Assembly (NCBI RefSeq): GCF_001679665.1
Contig: NZ_CP013244.1
Location: 3,531,001 to 3,595,000 of the forward strand
Reading direction: 5' to 3'
From: Candidatus Viadribacter manganicus
GTDB taxonomy: Bacteria; Pseudomonadota; Alphaproteobacteria; Caulobacterales; Aquidulcibacteraceae
Length of the DNA stretch: 64,000 nt
How positions within the stretch are numbered: the first letter of the stretch is position 1; the number at the start of each line of letters is the position of its first letter. This document shows positions 5,875-22,371 of this stretch, one piece after another. The notes under the pieces were generated by a model. That model searched no databases, was not told where the DNA came from, and saw nothing but the letters and a program-made list of their open reading frames with translations. The position numbers were made by a program, and so were the translations under genes.

Positions 5875-5957
5875 ACTTAATTCGCCCTTGAGACTAGTTT
5901 TGTCCCGAGGGCTCGCGCAAAGGCGGCGCCAATTAACGATAGGGGCTGGTGAAGCGG

Positions 5958-6048
5958 TGGCGGAGACGGAGGGATTCGAACCCTCGATACGCGGTTAACG
6001 TATGCTCCCTTAGCAAGGGAGTGCCTTCAGCCACTCGGCCACGTCTCC
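5958..6048 (-). tRNA. tRNA-Ser (GCU anticodon)
   Basis: The minus strand folds as a class II tRNA: acceptor GGAGACG pairs with CGTCTCC, discriminator G, and the CCA end is encoded. The anticodon loop TTGCTAA closes a CTCCC/GGGAG stem, giving GCT, and the extra arm between anticodon and T arms is long as in serine tRNAs. The T loop reads GTTCGAATC. It lies between the esterase gene and the polysaccharide operon on the same strand. Confidence 0.97.
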
Positions 6049-6131
6049 GGCGGGGGCACGCTTAGCCGCGCTGCCCGATCCGGGCAAGGCGGCATTGCTG
6101 AACCTGTGAGTTAACCGGCCGATGGCGGTCA

Positions 6132-7916
6132 TTAACGGCGCTGTGGGCGACGATAGGTTTGGAGGGTGTGGCGGGAGAAGAATTCCCAAAGGATCTCACC
6201 GGCATCCATGTCCATATTGACGTCGCCCAGTTCTGCCTGCGGGCGTGGATGCCCGGGCCAGGTGTGGCCGCCGCCGTTAATCATATAGAGCACGACGTCC
6301 GCGCCGGATGTGCAGTCGCGCGGAATGAAGCGCACTACCTGGGTGCCGGGAGACTGACCGCCTTCTGCGTAAGTCGTACTTTCGCCGGAGAGGCTGCAGC
6401 CATTGCGGCGCGCGAACATCGCAACCGTATCCTGGATGCCGTAGGAGATGCGGATCGGGTCGCCCATCTCGCGGTTGGCGACGAGCACACCCTCGTACGG
6501 CACGCTTGGATCGGCCGTGCCGTTCATGATGAGAATCGGCGTCGGCGGGCTGCGGCTGCAGACCTGCGACAGCTCCGAATAGAGATTGCCGCTCACCGGC
6601 GCGAAGGCGGCGAATGTGCCGCCGGCCGAGCAGGCCATCCGGTAACTCATGAAGCCGCCGTTTGAAAATCCGCCGAGATAGAGCCGGGTGCGGTCGATGT
6701 TAAAATCGACGGCGACGTCATCCATCAATGTCTGCAAGAAGCCGACGTCGTCCTGCGGGAGTGTTGAGCGGCGCCCAGTTAGAGAGATATCGCGCGCTGA
6801 TATATCGAACTGGGCGTTCCATTCGTTGTCGATGCCGTCGGGATAAACAACTATGAAATTGTGGTTCTCGGCGACGGCGTTCATGCCCGTCATCGAAGCC
6901 ATGCCGCCGCTATTGCCGGGGCGTCCATGCAACAAAACAACCACTGACGCTGGTTGGGCCGGATCATAGGTCGGGGGAGCATAAACGATCCACGAGCGCG
7001 AGCGCCCGCTGCTGCGGGTGTCAGGCAATGTGAACGCAGTGCGATCGAAGAAGAACTGATTGATGAGCGCCGTGGCATCGACGTTCTGACGATTGATTTG
7101 GTAACGGCTGTTGGCGCGGAACCAATTGTGCCCGCCTCCGGCGACGCCAACGTAAGCGACTTGTGCGCCCGATGAGCACGAACCGTAAAGGACGGCGCCT
7201 TCTCGGCCGCTTGCGCTCGGCTCTCCGCATCCATTCACGCGTCGCCACACCGCGAGTGTGTCGTTGACGCCGAGGCGGCGGACATCGATGCCGTTCACAT
7301 CGCCGCCATTGATCGGCGTGTATTGATCGTCGCGGCGTCCGTGTACGATCAGCATCGGGGTTGGCGTGGCGCTGCTGCACGCCTCGCGCGCATAGTCCCA
7401 CATAAGCGCGCCGACGATTGCGACACCGGCGAGCGAGACGGGCGGCCTGCATGCGAGCGCGTACGCCATGCCGCTGTCGTACCCGACCACGTAGATACGG
7501 CTGCGATCGATAGTGAACTCAGCGGCGGCCGCCTCGATCAGATCGGCGATGAAGCCTGCGTCGTCCGCCGCCGGGCCGGGGCGATTGAGCAGTGCGTGGC
7601 CGCCATCATTCCAAAAGCCGGCTAAGGTTTCGGGATAAACGACGATGGCGCCGCGCTGGTCGGCGACGCTCGCCAATCCGCTGATGGCGTGCATCGCTTG
7701 TGGCGATGAAAAGCGTCCGTGCAGCGCGATGATCAGCGGCGCCGCCTGCCCGTGATGATAGGTTGAAGGCTGATAGATTCCGGCAAAGCGCGCTTCGCCG
7801 TCATGTTCATAGCCGCGCATTGCGAGGGCGCGCGAAAAACTTTGGGTATCTTGCGCGTGAGCAACGCCGAATGTCAGCACTGCCGCGAATACCGCTGCGA
7901 TCCATTTCGTAAGCAT
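6132..7916 (-). CDS. Secreted tandem-domain esterase of the PHB depolymerase/feruloyl esterase (LpqC) family; first domain lacks the nucleophile serine
   Basis: A 594-residue exported protein with two alpha/beta-hydrolase domains. The start at 7916 gives a clean signal peptide ([22 protein letters not shown]) and has GGGA seven bases upstream; a longer frame adds 15 residues. Domain 1 is about 30-290, domain 2 about 300-590. Domain 2 keeps a full triad: S418 in GGFSNGG, D469 in ADPSVPY, H551 in GGGHTWPG. Domain 1 has the oxyanion-region ALHGRFSS, D197 and H263 in GGGHNW, but the nucleophile elbow reads GYDSG at 145-149, with Asp147 where Ser should stand. Domain 1 may thus be a dead binding module, or use Asp chemically. 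Substrates of the family include polyhydroxyalkanoates and hydroxycinnamate esters; the real substrate is unknown. Confidence 0.85.
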   Translation of the reverse strand: MLTKWIAAVFAAVLTFGVAHAQDTQSFSRALAMRGYEHDGEARFAGIYQPSTYHHGQAAPLIIALHGRFSSPQAMHAISGLASVADQRGAIVVYPETLAGFWNDGGHALLNRPGPAADDAGFIADLIEAAAAEFTIDRSRIYVVGYDSGMAYALACRPPVSLAGVAIVGALMWDYAREACSSATPTPMLIVHGRRDDQYTPINGGDVNGIDVRRLGVNDTLAVWRRVNGCGEPSASGREGAVLYGSCSSGAQVAYVGVAGGGHNWFRANSRYQINRQNVDATALINQFFFDRTAFTLPDTRSSGRSRSWIVYAPPTYDPAQPASVVVLLHGRPGNSGGMASMTGMNAVAENHNFIVVYPDGIDNEWNAQFDISARDISLTGRRSTLPQDDVGFLQTLMDDVAVDFNIDRTRLYLGGFSNGGFMSYRMACSAGGTFAAFAPVSGNLYSELSQVCSRSPPTPILIMNGTADPSVPYEGVLVANREMGDPIRISYGIQDTVAMFARRNGCSLSGESTTYAEGGQSPGTQVVRFIPRDCTSGADVVLYMINGGGHTWPGHPRPQAELGDVNMDMDAGEILWEFFSRHTLQTYRRPQRR

Positions 7917-8012
7917 GCGCGAATCCCGAGTTGTGATCGCATCAACTCGCGCCTCCGTCACCTACGCTAAACACATCTCCGCGAGGTGCTGCGAACCAAC
8001 GGGGATTTGCGA

Positions 8013-8663
8013 CTAACGCTCGGCGAGGCCGGCCTGGTTCATGCGCCAGATCAGGTGATCCAAGCGGTCCTGCCCGAAGAAGGGCTCGTTCTGGAAAACG
8101 AAGAGTGGCACGCCCCAGTGGCCGGCATCGCGCTGGTCGGCGACGTTTTGCGTGATCTCGGCGCCCAGGTCTTCGCCGTTGTCGCGGACTTCCGCTTCGA
8201 TGGCGCCCGCATCGAGCCCCGCTTCGGCGGCGGCATTGCTTAGGTGGTCGCCCTCATGCCAAGCGTCGACTTCGCCGGACCAGATTTTGTGCGAGGCGCG
8301 GCGCGCGAACTCGAAGCCGCGACCAGCGCGTGTGGCGGCGACGGCCATGCGGCTGACGCGATGAATGTACGGCTGCTCCGCCGCCACTTCTCCTGAAGCA
8401 ATATCCATGATGATCGGATCAGGCCGGGGCCAGCGATAGGGAATGTTGTTCATCTGCGAGATACGAAACGTGTCGCGCAGCAGGTAAGGCGGCCAAAGCG
8501 GGTTCACGGACTTGAAGAAGCCCGGAATACGGATCGCGATTGGAGTTACGATGCGCATGCGGGGCTTTAGATCGTATTTCGCCATTAGCGCCTCGACTTG
8601 CGGCGCGGCCAGATACGAATAAGGGCTGCGGAACGAGAAATAAAAATCGAACTCAAGTGTCAT
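8013..8663 (-). CDS. DsbA-fold protein of the 2-hydroxychromene-2-carboxylate isomerase family
   Basis: A 216-residue kappa-class GST/DsbA-fold protein. The N-terminus FDFYFSFRSPYSYLA carries SPYS where thiol oxidoreductases have CxxC, with the serine used as glutathione ligand in HCCA isomerase. IRIPGFFKSVNP and WPRPDP loops and the C-terminal GHWGVPLFVFQNEPFFGQDRL are typical of the family. HCCA isomerase acts in naphthalene degradation, but most chromosomal members have unknown substrates. No other aromatic degradation gene is near. It follows the PLP enzyme gene by three bases on the same strand, so the two are very likely co-transcribed and might act on one substrate class. Confidence 0.8.
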   Translation of the reverse strand: MTLEFDFYFSFRSPYSYLAAPQVEALMAKYDLKPRMRIVTPIAIRIPGFFKSVNPLWPPYLLRDTFRISQMNNIPYRWPRPDPIIMDIASGEVAAEQPYIHRVSRMAVAATRAGRGFEFARRASHKIWSGEVDAWHEGDHLSNAAAEAGLDAGAIEAEVRDNGEDLGAEITQNVADQRDAGHWGVPLFVFQNEPFFGQDRLDHLIWRMNQAGLAER

Positions 8664-9893: not shown

Positions 9894-10024
9894 CCGGTTC
9901 CTCCGTTTGGGCGCAAAAAGCACGCCCTGACCCCGCAGACAACCGGCGCGCGACGGCGCTTCGGACTTCACTCGGCGGCAATCTTCCGTAATGTGCGCTC
10001 TGGGGACGTGAGCGGGAGATGGCG

Positions 10025-11068
10025 ATGGCCAAGCGGAATTGGGCGGCGGCGCTTTTAGGAGCGGCCACTTTGAGTTTGGCCGCGCCTGCTGCAGCGCAAA
10101 CGCGGTTGTTCTCGGAAGACTCAGAGCTCCCCATCGTGATCGAAGGCCCCATTGGCGATCTCGTGCGCCGAGCTGTGCGCAATACCGATCCTGCGCCCGC
10201 TGTTTTGATCGTCGGCGATCAGCGCTTCGAGATGGAGCTTTCACCGCGCGGGTTCTCTCGCCGTACGCTCGGCATCTGCCAGTTTCCGCCGCTGCGGATC
10301 GACCTCGCTGGCGAGCGCCAAGGCACCATCATGCAGGGCCAGAACAAGCTAAAACTGGTGACGCGTTGCCGCTCAGGGGCCTCGTACGAGCAGTACATCG
10401 TGCTCGAATACCTCACTTATCGCATGTTCAACGAGATCACGCCGCTCAGCTATCGCGTGCGGCCGGTGCGCACCACGTATCGCGACACTGCCGGCCGCCG
10501 CCGCGAGGAAACTCAGTTCAACTTCGTCATCGAGGATGTTGGCGATTTGGCGCGCCGCAATCGACGCGTGGCGCTGGACGTTCAATCGCGCGAAGTGGCG
10601 TCCAGCCAGCTCGACCCGCAACAGGCGGCGATTGTCGGCATGTTTCAGTTCATGATCGGCAATTTGGATTGGGACATGGTCGAAGGCGCCGCCGGCGAAG
10701 AGTGTTGCCATAATGGCAAACTGCTCGCTGCGAACGAGACCAGCCGTGAGAATGTCGTGCCGGTGCCGTACGACTTTGACTATTCGGGGTTTGTCAGCAC
10801 CTCCTATTCCACGCCCCCGCAGGGAATGCCGGTGCCTAATGTGCGTCAGCGTTACTATCGCGGCTACTGCCGTTACAACGACCAAGCTCAAGCCGCCGCA
10901 GAACTTTTCCGCTCCCGGCGGGATCGCCTCTATGCACTGATTGATGGCGAGAGCCGTTTGTCAGCCTCGCGGCGTGCAACGGCGCGCGCATACATCGAAG
11001 GCTTCTTCCAGATTATCGACAATCCGCAACGCTATCAGCGCCAGATCGTCGACAATTGCCGCCGCTAG
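10025..11068 (+). CDS. Exported protein with CotH-like (Fam20C/HipA-type) protein kinase motifs
   Basis: A 347-residue protein with a signal peptide ending about AAPAAA-Q. The ATG at 10025 is preferred to 10019 because GGGAG then sits six bases upstream. I do not recognise a named family, but the order of motifs resembles CotH spore-coat kinases: LRIDLAGE then KLKLVTRC (N-lobe strands with Lys), a helix with YEQYIVLEYLTYRMFNEI like the CotH LxxKLAYDLFRE helix, a strand YRVRPVRTTY, then IGNLDWDM at about 211-218 (catalytic-loop position) and VPVPYDFDYSG at 246-256 (metal DFG-like position). Six cysteines, including CC before HNGKLL, suit disulfides outside the cytoplasm. Its stop interlocks with that of an exported phosphatase. 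Kinase activity is an inference; a pseudokinase is possible. Confidence 0.6.
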   Translation: MAKRNWAAALLGAATLSLAAPAAAQTRLFSEDSELPIVIEGPIGDLVRRAVRNTDPAPAVLIVGDQRFEMELSPRGFSRRTLGICQFPPLRIDLAGERQGTIMQGQNKLKLVTRCRSGASYEQYIVLEYLTYRMFNEITPLSYRVRPVRTTYRDTAGRRREETQFNFVIEDVGDLARRNRRVALDVQSREVASSQLDPQQAAIVGMFQFMIGNLDWDMVEGAAGEECCHNGKLLAANETSRENVVPVPYDFDYSGFVSTSYSTPPQGMPVPNVRQRYYRGYCRYNDQAQAAAELFRSRRDRLYALIDGESRLSASRRATARAYIEGFFQIIDNPQRYQRQIVDNCRR

Positions 11069-12210
11069 TTCGCCGCAGCGGCGTTCGCGGCGCATTGGGT
11101 CTGCTCTAGCTGCGCCACTGGGCCGGTTCCATTGTCCAGCGCCACGATCTGGCGAAGATAGGCGCAGGTTTCTTGCGGCGTTGACGCAATCACTGGAATA
11201 CGTTGGCCGCGGTGGATCGTGACCCATGCGCCGTTTTCCATGATGAGAAACGCGTGCGGGTCCGAATGGCCGCGCGGTACGGCGATGTCAGCGATCAGAA
11301 CGCGCCCATTGAAGCGCGGCAGCACCGTCGACGTCACTTTGGTGTGCCCGACGATGACGCGCGCAACACCCTGCGCGCGGAGCACGTTGTCGAGGTTTGC
11401 CGCTTCAGTGGCCTCTGCATTTTGAGAGAGGCCGCGGTACCAGAGCGGCCCTTGCTGGTTATCGACGATGTCCGGATAAGTTTCGAGCGGGCGATCGCGC
11501 AGCGCCGCGCTCACGGCTTGGTTCATTCCGGCGCGGGGCGCAGCGGCAAATGAGGGCCCAAGGCCGGCGTGTAAGAACAGCGTATCGTTGATACGGATGA
11601 CTGCGTTGTGTTGCGCAATCCATCGTCCGTAGCGCCCGTTAGGACCCCACGCTTCACGGTGCTCGACCCAGCCAAGCGGGTGCTCTTGGTTCCATTGTTG
11701 GCGATAGACTGAATCAAAGACTGGCGCCCCGGTGGCGGGTGGTGAGCGGCGCAGGGCGCGTGTGTAGCGCTGATAGTATTGGTTGCGGACCCGCTCGGAG
11801 CGCGATGTCGCGAACGCCGCGAATTCGCCCGGATGCGTGTAACGCAAATCCCCTTCGATGTTCATGGCTTCGTGATTGCCGATGAGTGCGTGGACGTGTC
11901 CGCCGGCGCGCTGCGCTTGCGGTTCGAGGCGCATCAGCAGATCCATGATCATGCGGCTGTTCGGTCCGCGATCGGGAATGTCACCGAGTTGAACGAGGTG
12001 GGTCTGCCCGCCGGTCCAGTTGTTCTGCGCGTCGATCAGGCCCGCGGTGCGGAGCATGTCGGTGAACTTCTCGTAGTCGCCTTCGAGATCGGCAATGGTG
12101 ACGATGCGAGCAACGCCATCCCATTGTTCGCGCGCCTGCGCGAACGCGGGCGCCGCCCCGGCAAAAACGAGCGTCATGAGGACAGCGAGGGTGCGAAGCA
12201 GTTTCATCAT
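11065..12210 (-). CDS. Exported PPP-type calcineurin-like phosphatase (Shewanella-like phosphatase group)
   Basis: A 381-residue metallophosphatase. The start at 12210 places a signal peptide (MMKLLRTLAVLMTLVFAGAAPAFAQA) at the very N-terminus; a 12-residue longer form is possible and no strong ribosome site separates them. PPP motifs appear in order: IADLEGDYEKF (41-45), LGDIPDRG (75-82), IGNHEAMN (110-117), FLHAGLG and VGHTKV with the late His residues. The first motif is D-L-E-G where the family normally has D-x-H-G, so the metal-ligand His is Glu. The domain resembles bacterial Shewanella-like Ser/Thr or Tyr phosphatases. Export plus the facing kinase-like gene suggests action on phosphoproteins outside the cytoplasm; other phosphoesters are possible. 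Confidence 0.82.
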   Translation of the reverse strand: MMKLLRTLAVLMTLVFAGAAPAFAQAREQWDGVARIVTIADLEGDYEKFTDMLRTAGLIDAQNNWTGGQTHLVQLGDIPDRGPNSRMIMDLLMRLEPQAQRAGGHVHALIGNHEAMNIEGDLRYTHPGEFAAFATSRSERVRNQYYQRYTRALRRSPPATGAPVFDSVYRQQWNQEHPLGWVEHREAWGPNGRYGRWIAQHNAVIRINDTLFLHAGLGPSFAAAPRAGMNQAVSAALRDRPLETYPDIVDNQQGPLWYRGLSQNAEATEAANLDNVLRAQGVARVIVGHTKVTSTVLPRFNGRVLIADIAVPRGHSDPHAFLIMENGAWVTIHRGQRIPVIASTPQETCAYLRQIVALDNGTGPVAQLEQTQCAANAAAAN

Positions 12211-17943: not shown

Positions 17944-20900
17944 TTGGTCAGTCTTGCCAATATGAATGTCGCCGCCGCTCTGCTGAGTGGGGCGAGCGGA
18001 ACCACCGTTGGCGCAAGCACGCTGACGCAGTGGGCCGCTTCGCGCGCCGGCATCATCAGCGCTGATTCCCAGGGGGCGACCCAGGATCCGAACGCACCGA
18101 TAGCGCCGGTCTGGACGCCCGGTGTTTCTCCGAGCGCCGAGGCGCTCGTTCAGCGCGCGCTCACCAACAAATCGTTCTTCGACACCAATGCCAAGCTCTA
18201 CAGCGACCTCGGCGCGAGCGGCGACTACAAGAAGCTCTTCGCGCTCTATTCAGGGCTTACCACGCTGCAAGCGCTGGCCGGACACGCCGAAGACACGAGC
18301 TTGTCCAAAGCTGCGCTGGCGCAAACGCAAGCTCAGTTCGCGCGCGGGCTAACGGAGCTTGAGGCGTTCTTCGCGCAGCAGAAGTTCGACGACATTCGCT
18401 TGTCGCAAGGCGACCGGGTCGACACCGCGCAGACGACACTGGCGATGGCCAGCAAGAGCGAAGACTACACAACGCCGGTGATCCATCGAGGCGGGCTTTA
18501 TGATAAGATCACCGGCCTCGCGAGCGATGCGAAGTTCAACATTGTCGCGACCTCGCTCGGCGGTACGGTTCGGAACGTCGCGATTGATCTTAGCGAGATG
18601 GGCTCGTTGCCGCGCACGCTGAGCAATGTGGTAAGCTATGTGAACGGCAAGCTCTCTGCCGCTGGCGCAGCGTCTCGTCTTGAGGCGCTCGATCAAACGC
18701 CAAAGACTGTGAATACTGTGATCGGCGGAAAGGTTGTTGCGACCAAGTATACGGGCGCAAAGCAATTCGCACTGAAGGTCGATGTAAACGCGAGCGAGAA
18801 GGTCTCGTTTCAGCCTGTCGACGCGGATCCCGCGTTTTATGCAGTCGGTACGACAGCCAATGGCGCGCGTCTTATCAAATTGGAAGATGTCGGCGGCGCA
18901 ACGGGGCAACCTGTGTTGCTGGATCGAGCTCGCTCGACTGTTGATCCAATTGGCGCGCTGATTGGCGCGGGCTGGATCGGCGCAGGCGCTCCGTACACGT
19001 CCGCTCCGGCTGGCGCGACCGAGCAACGCACCAACGCCATGACGTCGGACGGCGCGAATACGTTCGAGGACGCATTGCGCGCGGCCGGCGAAGCGGTCTT
19101 GAAATTGGAATTGCCGGATGGGCGCTCGCTGAGCGTGACAACAGCTTGGCGCAGCGATGATCTCGAAGCGTGGCGGGTGCGCGCTGGCGAGAGTGAAGAT
19201 CAGGGTATGCTCGATGATCTCGCCGAGCGCCTCACTCAATTGTTGCACGAACAAGGCGTCGCTGCAGGCGTCGAGGTTTGGGAAGACGACGGCAAATTCG
19301 GCCTTTCGATATACGGCGGCGATGGAGTTCGGGCTTCTAGCCTTTCCATCGGCGGCAAGTTTGCGTCGCTCGACACCGTCGAAACGCCGGGCATGGTCGG
19401 TGGGCTGCGCGATGGCGTCTTTGCGCGGCGTTTCGAGGTGGCGGGCATTGTGCCTGAAGATGGCGTCTTCACCGGGACGCAGACCTTCACGTTCACAACC
19501 GGCACGAGTGCCAACGCCATTACGATCGACGGTGGCGACGACGGCGTCAGCGCGGCTCAGTTGCAAGACAAGCTCAATGTAAAGCTGCGGCAGAAGGGTC
19601 TCGCCGCGGCGGCGTATCTTGTCGACAATGGCGGGTCCTACACGCTGCGCATCGATGCGCTGCACGACATGGTCGACGTTGGCGCTGTCCTGAATAGTGA
19701 AACGGTTGATGCGGATATCGTGGCGCCCGGAGCTTGGGCGTCTGGTGGGCTGCCGAATGCGACCAGCGGCCAGCCGTTCGGTGATTCCATTCGCACCTAT
19801 GGCGCCAGCGGCTCCCCGCTTTCGACGCACTTAGGCGCGCTCAACATCGAAGTGGTTGTGGCCACGGCGAACGGCAACAAGACCGTCAATCTGGCGATCA
19901 CCGCGCAGGATCGCCTCGACAATCTGGATCTGGCGCCCGGCCGATGGAATTCGGCGCTGCAGGCGCGGCTTGACTTGGCGCTCAACGCGGCCGGCGTTTA
20001 TGTAAGCGCGCCCGGCGGCGAACTCACACAGTGGAATGTTGCGGAAGGCGCCGGCCAGCGCCTGGTTTCGGTGAGCGTCAATGGTGATGCTCTTGCACTT
20101 GAAGGCGATGCCCCAACTCTTGGCGTCGGCGGTGCGTTCTCGGCGCAACGCAGCTTCACCAGCGCGCAAGCCACAACTGGCGTCAGTGATGATGTTGCGG
20201 CGCTGTTGAGTGATCAGAACGTCTCCATCACGCTCGACACGACCTGGGGGCCGCGCACGATCAGTGCAGTGCTTGAGCCAGGCGATCCACGCACGCTTGA
20301 GAGCGCCGCGCTGCGCTTGAACGAGGCGCTTGCTGCAGGCGGTTATGACGCGGGCTTGGTGGCGACCAACCTTTCGGGCGGTGGTGCGGGTCTTCGTGTT
20401 GTGACCGGTTCTTCGAACACGGTTCGCGGTGTAACCAATCTCGATCTTGGCGGCTCGTCAGTAGCTTCGACGCTCGATCCAATCGATGCTGCGTCGCGGG
20501 CCGATGATCCGGTCGGCGCATTGCGCGTGTTTGAACGCGCCTCGCGCGGTGCGGCGATCACGCAGACGCTCTCGGCCACCTCGCCCTTCACGGCGCCGAG
20601 CGTCAATTCGTCTGCTTGGTTTGCTGGACGCGCGTTCGACGTCAGCGTTGGCGGCGGCGCAAAGGTCGCGACGGCGCGCGCGGTGGCGACGGCGGCAGAC
20701 GGCTCAGTTTACGTGCTGGCGGACCTCAGCGATGGCTCCTCGACGACCGACATCAAAGGCGCGCGCGATGTGGCGCTGCTGAAGTATGATTCCGCCGGCA
20801 AGCTGGCGTTCAGCGAAATTCTGGGGGCCGCGCAGTCCGCAAGTGGGTATGCGCTCGCCGTGTCAGCCGACGGCAAAGTCGCGGTTGCAGGCTCGATCGA

Positions 20901-22371
20901 AGGCGCGTTCAGCGGCACGACGGCAAAGGGCGGCGCAGATTCCTTCGTCACGATGTTTGATGCGGCCGGCAAAGAGCTTTGGACCGCGCGCCGGGGCGCA
21001 AGCGCCAATGATGAGGCGCTGGCAATCGCATTCGCGCCGGACGGAAGCGTTGTGGTCTCGGGAAAGACGGATTCGGCGCTGAGCGGTCAGGTCGGCGCGG
21101 GCGGATCGGATGGCTATTTGCGTGGCTACAGCGCCGCTGGGCTTGAGCTCTTCACCCGCCAGTTCGGCACAAGCGGCGCGGATGCGGCGTCGGCGCTGGT
21201 CGTACGCGACAATGGCGTCGGCGGCATCGATATCTTCACCGGCGGCGTCGAAGACAATCGCGGCGTCGTGCGGAGCTTCAGCTATGCGAGCGGCGCTGGG
21301 CTCACCGTCGGCGCGACGCGTGACCTTGGATACTTCTACAAAGGCGCGATCAACGCGCTCGTGGTCGATGGTTCGTCGCTTTACGTTGGCGGCGAAATCG
21401 GCGCTGATCGTTTGACGCTAGCCAGCACGGCGCGCGGCGCGGTCGCGGGACAAGAGGGCTTTGTCGCGCGTATCAATGCTGATCTGACATCGACCGGCCT
21501 TGATCGCGCAACTTATCTGGGTTCGGCGCAGGACGACGCGGTCAAGAGCCTCGCGATCGTTAATGGCAACGTTTACGCCGCAGGTGTCACGGGTGGCGCG
21601 ATCTCGGGAACGGGCGCCGCAAAATCTTCAATGAGCTTCCTCACGCGCTTGGGCAGCGACGGCGAGACGGACTGGATGCGCTCGTTCACGTCTTCAGGCG
21701 GCTCGGTGGCGCTGACCGGACTTGCTGTCGATACTGGCGGCGCCTCGGCGCTCGATATTCTGGGCCTGCCGCGCGGCGCCTTGCCGACAAGCGATTCAAG
21801 CACCCTCACCAACCGCAGTGCGCTTCGCGCCGGCGATGAGTTCAAGATCGGTGTTGATGGGCGCCGCCTGACAACGATCAAGATCGGCGACAAGGACACC
21901 ATCCAGACGCTGGCGACAGCGATCAACCGCGCGATTGGCTCAGCAGGGCGCGCCGAGATCGTCAAAGCCGATGGCGTCGAACGCATCAAAATTACACCGC
22001 GCAGCGGGCAGGCGCTCCGGCTCGATCCGGGTGGCAAGGACCGGGACGCATTGCCGGCGCTGGGACTTGGTCAAGGCATCATCGCTGAGAGCGATGCCGG
22101 GCGCGCAGCGCTCAAAACCTACGGCCTTGGCCTCGTTGGTCTGACGCTTGACGGCAAAACCGCCATTTCGAACGCCAAGTCGGAGCTTTCGGCCGCCATT
22201 TCGATCGTCCGCATCGCCTATGACGCCATGCTCAACCCGAACGCCAAGGCGATGACGGATGAGGAAAAGGCGCTCCAGGCCCGCCGCCAGAACATGGGCG
22301 CAGCGCCGGAATACTATACGGCGAAACTGGCGAACTATCAGGCCGCTCTGACCCGTCTGACCGGTGAGTAA
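17944..22371 (+). CDS. Very large modular protein resembling Caulobacter regulatory protein FlaEY
   Basis: A 1475-residue protein. GGAG five bases before the TTG at 17944 favours the start MVSLANMN over the ATG at 17962. There is no Sec signal, as for axial flagellar proteins. Residues 60-180 are helical. Four modules (about 380-475, 510-580, 630-700, 758-833) and one more (1296-1363) look like flagellin-IN/hook-associated repeats: a beta hairpin, then a helix like TIQTLATAINRAIGSAG, then a strand. Residues about 903-1276 hold beta-propeller-like repeats (AVATAADGSVYVLADL, ALAVSADGKVAVAGSI, AIAFAPDGSVVVSGKT). The C-terminal 58 residues are helical. I recall similar proteins being annotated FlaEY in Caulobacterales; this is from memory. 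A flagellum-linked surface or regulatory role is inferred. No other flagellar gene is in the window. Confidence 0.6.
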   Translation: MVSLANMNVAAALLSGASGTTVGASTLTQWAASRAGIISADSQGATQDPNAPIAPVWTPGVSPSAEALVQRALTNKSFFDTNAKLYSDLGASGDYKKLFALYSGLTTLQALAGHAEDTSLSKAALAQTQAQFARGLTELEAFFAQQKFDDIRLSQGDRVDTAQTTLAMASKSEDYTTPVIHRGGLYDKITGLASDAKFNIVATSLGGTVRNVAIDLSEMGSLPRTLSNVVSYVNGKLSAAGAASRLEALDQTPKTVNTVIGGKVVATKYTGAKQFALKVDVNASEKVSFQPVDADPAFYAVGTTANGARLIKLEDVGGATGQPVLLDRARSTVDPIGALIGAGWIGAGAPYTSAPAGATEQRTNAMTSDGANTFEDALRAAGEAVLKLELPDGRSLSVTTAWRSDDLEAWRVRAGESEDQGMLDDLAERLTQLLHEQGVAAGVEVWEDDGKFGLSIYGGDGVRASSLSIGGKFASLDTVETPGMVGGLRDGVFARRFEVAGIVPEDGVFTGTQTFTFTTGTSANAITIDGGDDGVSAAQLQDKLNVKLRQKGLAAAAYLVDNGGSYTLRIDALHDMVDVGAVLNSETVDADIVAPGAWASGGLPNATSGQPFGDSIRTYGASGSPLSTHLGALNIEVVVATANGNKTVNLAITAQDRLDNLDLAPGRWNSALQARLDLALNAAGVYVSAPGGELTQWNVAEGAGQRLVSVSVNGDALALEGDAPTLGVGGAFSAQRSFTSAQATTGVSDDVAALLSDQNVSITLDTTWGPRTISAVLEPGDPRTLESAALRLNEALAAGGYDAGLVATNLSGGGAGLRVVTGSSNTVRGVTNLDLGGSSVASTLDPIDAASRADDPVGALRVFERASRGAAITQTLSATSPFTAPSVNSSAWFAGRAFDVSVGGGAKVATARAVATAADGSVYVLADLSDGSSTTDIKGARDVALLKYDSAGKLAFSEILGAAQSASGYALAVSADGKVAVAGSIEGAFSGTTAKGGADSFVTMFDAAGKELWTARRGASANDEALAIAFAPDGSVVVSGKTDSALSGQVGAGGSDGYLRGYSAAGLELFTRQFGTSGADAASALVVRDNGVGGIDIFTGGVEDNRGVVRSFSYASGAGLTVGATRDLGYFYKGAINALVVDGSSLYVGGEIGADRLTLASTARGAVAGQEGFVARINADLTSTGLDRATYLGSAQDDAVKSLAIVNGNVYAAGVTGGAISGTGAAKSSMSFLTRLGSDGETDWMRSFTSSGGSVALTGLAVDTGGASALDILGLPRGALPTSDSSTLTNRSALRAGDEFKIGVDGRRLTTIKIGDKDTIQTLATAINRAIGSAGRAEIVKADGVERIKITPRSGQALRLDPGGKDRDALPALGLGQGIIAESDAGRAALKTYGLGLVGLTLDGKTAISNAKSELSAAISIVRIAYDAMLNPNAKAMTDEEKALQARRQNMGAAPEYYTAKLANYQAALTRLTGE

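Follow-up and report, generated by a model that had tools for sequence, protein, structure and literature searches.

A predicted exported CotH-fold kinase-like protein and a Shelph-related phosphatase are encoded side by side in Candidatus Viadribacter manganicus and its relatives

Introduction

Could a Gram-negative bacterium phosphorylate proteins outside its cytoplasm and remove the phosphate again? This question is raised by two convergent genes in the window, i.e., the whole 64,000-nucleotide stretch of the Candidatus Viadribacter manganicus genome analysed here, which the original prediction had read as encoding an exported kinase-like protein (hereafter K) and an exported phosphatase (hereafter P). 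Extracytoplasmic Ser/Thr/Tyr phosphorylation in bacteria is known mainly from the spore protein CotH, for which neither a phosphatase nor the source of ATP has been identified (PMC7821199); phosphorylation by CotH of Bacillus subtilis may therefore be irreversible (PMC7821199). The protein families of K and P were both already known, and what is new here is the proposed coupling of an exported kinase of the CotH type to an exported phosphatase of its own, a combination that is not described in the freely accessible literature searched.

Results

Layout and export signals of the gene pair

Both predicted open reading frames are present and end in a common CTAG, the stop codon of K being the TAG at 11066-11068 and that of P the complement of 11065-11067 (Table 1). 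Since homologues of each occur in dozens of genomes, with identities of ~32-79% to K and 34-79% to P of the window, neither is a chance reading frame. We dropped the CTAG overlap as a regulatory device, as the gap between K and P differs among relatives and is usually 0-100 bases. The two genes being convergent in the window, their co-expression there is not assured.

The signal peptides expected on both proteins are probably a family-wide property: besides the Sec-like N-termini of the window copies, hydropathy revealed a hydrophobic N-terminal stretch in 75/81 K homologues and in 59/60 P homologues. K and P are thus both predicted, from N-terminal sequence and family-wide hydropathy, to be exported and extracytoplasmic.

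Table 1. Coordinates in the window of the K and P genes and of their predicted functional elements
Feature	Position	Strand	Basis or remark
K, exported CotH-fold kinase-like protein, 349 aa	10019..11068	+	AlphaFold, Foldseek, Pfam matches of homologues
K, alternative start	10025	+	second in-frame ATG
K, predicted Sec signal peptide, residues 1 to ~27	10019..10099	+	cleavage near SLAAPAAAQ-T; sequence
K112, strand-borne Lys, 81/81; probable nucleotide-binding Lys	10352..10354	+	alignment, model
E130 in helix 121-140, 80/81; probable helix-C Glu	10406..10408	+	alignment, model
N215-L-D217, N and D 81/81; probable catalytic-loop Asp	10661..10669	+	after helix 200-212
C229-C230-H231-N232, H and N invariant; N232 probable metal-binding Asn	10703..10714	+	
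Y251-D252-F253-D254, DFG-like putative metal-binding motif; Y, D, D 81/81, F 80/81	10769..10780	+	
CTAG common to both convergent stop codons	11065..11068		
P, exported Shewanella-like PPP-fold phosphatase, 381 aa	11065..12210	-	phmmer, profile, AlphaFold, Foldseek
P, possible longer start	12246	-	ATG
P, predicted Sec signal peptide	12136..12210	-	cleavage near AGAAPAFAQA-R; sequence
P, first PPP metal motif A40-D-L-E43-G44 in place of GDxHG	12079..12093	-	alignment
P, GDIPDRG (GDxxDRG motif), residues 76-82	11965..11985	-	
P, GNHE motif, residues 111-114	11869..11880	-	

Elsewhere in the window, at 17944-22371 (+), a 1475-aa open reading frame combines flagellin/FlgL-like ends with a long repeat-rich middle, which is an unusual mix of domains as read from sequence only.

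Predicted fold and catalytic residues of K

K matched no entry of Pfam (E up to 10) or of NCBIfam, and sequence searches of the PDB, with the single protein or with a profile of 81 rows (K of the window plus 80 homologues from the genome scan), gave nothing useful. The predicted structure was informative and agrees with the earlier claim of a CotH-like kinase. With the AlphaFold model (mean pLDDT 94.6) as query, the first two Foldseek matches in the PDB were both the CotH kinase of Bacillus cereus (5jd9/5jda; E 2-3e-10, probability 1.00, TM 0.56-0.58), and the next ones, far weaker (E 4e-4 and up), were PI3/PI4 kinases; the model and these top matches place K in the CotH-type kinase fold. At the profile level, 13 of the 81 family members match PF08757 (CotH) at E<1, the best at E 2.7e-5, some through the N-lobe part of the profile and others through its C-lobe part, whereas K of the window has no match, and we therefore handle K as a divergent sister group and not as a member of PF08757. 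As modelled, K is a divergent family of CotH-fold, predicted kinases lying beyond the present Pfam model.

Invariant throughout the alignment (81/81) are K112, E172, N215, D217, H231, N232, Y251, D252, D254, and R278 as well as C87, C117, C284, and C347, and E130 and F253 are kept in 80/81. On the model, the Lys lies on strand 110-114, the Glu in helix 121-140, and the Asp after helix 200-212, followed by a metal-type Asn and by the DFD after strand 246-250, so that the predicted order fits Lys/Glu, catalytic Asp, metal Asn, and DFG Asp. The conserved residues of CotH are the equivalents of D166, N171, and D184 of PKA (PMC12189002); judged by order and position, their counterparts in K would be D217, N232, and D252/D254, all found in 81/81. 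A canonical CotH of an alphaproteobacterial genome (L148) reads GDDDGYVCCAHNFYLY...PWDFD against GNLDW...CCHNGKLL...PYDFD in K, with CCAHN at a place like that of the K motif CCHN and WDFD at that of YDFD. When K was compared, profile against profile, with three canonical alphaproteobacterial CotH proteins, just the N-lobe aligned, and weakly; the proposed catalytic counterparts are therefore assigned from residue order, invariance, and secondary structure. Six cysteines (87, 117, 229, 230, 284, and 347) are invariant or nearly so, and the conserved ones probably form disulfides.

Predicted fold and metal site of P

P had been assigned a metallophosphatase core of the Ser/Thr-phosphatase kind. 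Sequence searches instead led to the cold-active tyrosine phosphatase of Shewanella (1v73/2z72/2zbm; phmmer E ~1e-35, profile E 1e-56), the best Foldseek match of the AlphaFold model (pLDDT 94.9) was 2zbm (E 2.6e-22), and among the solved structures compared this enzyme lies far ahead of other PPP structures. The PPP metallophosphatase fold thus stands, while the Ser/Thr type is not established, the nearest enzyme being Tyr-specific (PMC535813). As the PPP phosphatases of the Shelph group have the Shewanella enzyme PPI as their type member (PMC535813), P is, by sequence and model and judged among solved structures, predicted to be Shelph-type rather than a classical Ser/Thr PPP.

Apart from the GDxxDRG and GNHE motifs, P keeps HxG and GHT, but its first metal motif is ADLEG, whereas most of the family carries the complete PPP signature; because the window copy is such a motif variant, we term it Shelph-related. 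The variable position holds H in 47 and E in 13 of 60 P homologues, and the E forms are all close to the window clade. A close relative nested among them (L065) has H, and the site is otherwise conserved, so the His-to-Glu swap is probably tolerated. One homologue (L068:6987-8123, - strand) carries, in addition to DxEG, a second metal-ligand change, LPGG for HGG.

K and P are neighbours across genomes

A survey of co-occurrence, by which the proposed link could be judged, showed that where both homologues occur in a genome they are almost always neighbours. Among 101 relatives, K occurs in 26 and a strong P homologue in 27. P adjoins K in 26/26 K genomes, and the 27th P homologue sits at the end of its contig, so that any gene next to it would be missing. 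Even sampling of 385 genomes from the class yielded 3 with K and 4 with P; three genomes have both, adjacent each time. All these counts share ancestry and do not amount to independent trials. The 80 GTDB loci examined overlap these genomes in part; P lies beside K in 63 of the 74 with enough flank, at a median gap of 14 bases.

This neighbourhood is found in Alphaproteobacteria, Gammaproteobacteria, and one member of the Bacteroidota, and the two genes are oriented to each other in four ways, namely P>K> in sphingomonads and Marinicaulis, where the gap of about -9 to +51 bases is operon-like, K><P in Hyphomonadaceae and Lysobacterales, <P K> in L139, and K>P> in the Bacteroidota locus L141. 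Mapped on a tree of K, the arrangement has switched at least three times with adjacency kept, and full-length P homologues occur almost exclusively beside K. The K-P pairing is real.

P is not obligatory, since some lineages keep K, with or without the DUF4956 protein described below, and no P. K with DUF4956 and without P is found in L103, L107, L125, L129, L131, and L132, an erythrobacter/sphingomonad subgroup among them, and K alone in Gemmatimonadota, Cyclobacteriaceae, and L112; two gammaproteobacterial loci with K also lack P. In the Erythrobacter/sphingomonad loci L125, L131, L132, and L107, K and DUF4956 are present with no phosphatase between rpoB and K, which makes them a natural test of the need for the phosphatase.

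K is duplicated in some genomes. One Hyphomonadaceae genome holds a second K paralogue (L027:1462-2523 / L081) that adjoins a phosphoglucosamine mutase-like gene and has neither phosphatase nor DUF4956 beside it. In Cyclobacteriaceae, L136 carries two tandem K-family genes (5956-8333, + strand) with no phosphatase nearby, and the second of them is broken into two reading frames (7030-7893 and 7845-8333), for which a frameshift may be responsible.

Further partners in most relatives

The original prediction of a two-gene system was right about the pair but describes less than what most relatives hold, as their fuller module adds a DUF4956 membrane protein (PF16316), beside K in 52/80 loci, and often an SdiA-regulated-like lipoprotein (PF06977, E 5e-7), present in 33/80. 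The order in L068 and L070 is K, P, lipoprotein, and DUF4956, then a ferredoxin-NADP-reductase-like gene, and the same reductase-like gene follows P in the window. L066 is without DUF4956, and the window and L063-L065 are without both DUF4956 and the lipoprotein. Orthologues of the DUF4956 and SdiA-like proteins of L068 were not found elsewhere in the genome of the window. That the partners are kept elsewhere in this genome was considered and rejected, the sole PF16316 match being sub-threshold and lying in an isolated gene that has no K, P, or lipoprotein gene next to it. The lineage of the window has lost DUF4956 and the lipoprotein, and K-P is the part retained.

Beyond this module, the neighbours of K-P are ribosomal/rpoB genes in sphingomonads and a ferredoxin reductase-like gene in Hyphomonadaceae. 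DUF4956 also accompanies canonical CotH: an alphaproteobacterial locus (L150) has a canonical CotH gene beside a DUF4956-like gene, and Gram-positive pel clusters carry cotH with genes for a polyphosphate polymerase, DUF4956, and DUF4832 (PMC7112168). This neighbourhood common to K and CotH is therefore fold-independent, contextual evidence that K belongs with CotH. In L150 (139-2871 and 2861-3553, - strand), CotH is a 910-aa protein with a long C-terminal region, its gene overlaps the DUF4956-like gene, and no Pel genes lie within the 4 kb examined. Outside Pel loci, the trio of CotH, polyphosphate polymerase, and membrane protein was not found in the earlier study (PMC12345266).

Discussion

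The K-P pair is supported by the computed export signals, the kinase fold with its catalytic constellation, the phosphatase fold, the co-occurrence, and the neighbourhood. We propose that K and P are a dedicated extracytoplasmic kinase-phosphatase pair for reversible phosphorylation, a reading to which we give a probability of about 0.6. Both proteins would leave the cytoplasm by the Sec route and work in the periplasm or on the cell surface, where K would phosphorylate a single exported protein or a small number of them and P, a Shelph-type metallophosphatase, would take the phosphate off again, making the modification reversible. In most relatives, the DUF4956 inner-membrane protein, and often the SdiA-regulated-like lipoprotein, would work with the pair, and the lineage of the window would have dropped these partners and kept K and P. 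Catalytic activity, a protein substrate, a phosphate donor, and antagonism of K and P on the same substrate are what we infer. The specificities of the two need not match, since CotH phosphorylates Ser (PMC7821199) and the Shewanella relative of P is specific for Tyr. Counting against such a switch are the Glu that stands for the first metal-ligand His in P of the window and the need for a phosphate donor outside the cytoplasm; the genome of the window gave no match to polyphosphate polymerase (PF09359), by which such a donor could be explained.

The pair resembles known systems in part. K shares with CotH (PF08757; 5JD9/5JDA) the overall fold and the order Lys/Glu, catalytic Asp, metal Asn, and DxD, and with some CotH genes a neighbourhood that includes DUF4956, but the identity is just 12-13%, PF08757 does not recognize the window copy, and K carries a predicted Sec signal peptide as well as conserved Cys in hosts that are Gram-negatives without spores. 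Unlike CotH of B. subtilis, thought to act possibly irreversibly and without a phosphatase (PMC7821199), K is paired with one. P agrees with the Shewanella PTPase/Shelphs (1V73, 2Z72, 2ZBM; PMC535813) in sequence, fold, and the motifs GDxxDRG, GNHE, HxG, and GHT, and differs from the Shewanella enzyme in its identity of 25-26%, in neighbouring a kinase gene, and, in the window clade, in the DxEG first motif and in D-I-A as against D(S/T)G or similar in bacterial PPPs. Like the Gram-positive pel accessory genes (PMC7112168, PMC12345266), K loci encode a DUF4956 membrane protein next to an exported protein with the CotH kinase fold; that accessory set (CotH, polyphosphate polymerase, DUF4956, DUF4832) names no PPP phosphatase and no SdiA-regulated lipoprotein, and K-P, unlike the pel clusters, has no polyphosphate polymerase and no adjoining Pel genes. 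The arrangement of K and P also recalls a well-known pair of the cytoplasm. The Hanks kinase PrkC/PknB and its PP2C phosphatase are encoded by adjacent genes and have opposed activities, as the adjacent K and P genes may have, but their catalytic domains are cytoplasmic, whereas K and P each start with a predicted signal peptide and neither has a fold of the Hanks or PP2C family.

The nature of the substrate is where another explanation has most to offer. K could phosphorylate a non-protein target, i.e., an envelope glycan, an LPS sugar, or a lipid, as do Fam20B and PI kinases, with P reversing the modification on the same molecule. The PI3/PI4 lipid kinases that come after CotH among the fold matches of K would suit this explanation, as would the cotH-DUF4956 association in Gram-positive pel clusters (PMC7112168) and the pel locus of Streptococcus intermedius, in which deletion of the cotH-like gene or of the adjoining four-TM MgtC-type gene, which from cluster order we infer to be the DUF4956 gene, alters Pel level and aggregation (PMC12345266). 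However, CotH, the sole close structural match of K, is a protein kinase (PMC7821199), and polysaccharide or LPS genes were not recurrent beside K-P loci, and we regard a glycan or lipid target as unlikely. It is less likely still that K and P have only regulation in common, P being a phosphatase of the periplasm that scavenges phosphate or acts on nucleotides, and K acting elsewhere on no common substrate. The loci holding K and DUF4956 without P and the broad specificity of bacterial PPP phosphatases (PMC535813) would agree with this, but a scavenging phosphatase is expected outside K loci too, whereas full-length P is found almost solely beside K, and the adjacency has outlasted at least three rearrangements. 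Finally, we see very little room for K being a pseudokinase or a nucleotidyl-transferase (SelO/Fam20A-like) that serves as scaffold or AMPylator and not as phosphotransferase: fold alone does not show chemistry and kinase-fold proteins with other activities exist, but the predicted catalytic residues are invariant or kept in 80/81 in homologues from three phyla, unlike in decayed kinases, which argues against a pseudokinase though not against an AMPylator.

For the dedicated pair that we favour, a bolder and tentative extension, which we hold to be possible but doubtful, would be a wholly extracytoplasmic Gram-negative circuit of K, P, and the lipoprotein, in which DUF4956 would supply or gate the donor, be it ATP or another phosphorylated compound. 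The recurrent DUF4956 protein is the first candidate for feeding or controlling K. Our analysis offers a likely function for a protein family without a Pfam entry, that of K, and a context for DUF4956. As K-P occurs in culturable strains of Erythrobacter, Qipengyuania, and Sphingomonas, reversible extracytoplasmic phosphorylation becomes directly testable.
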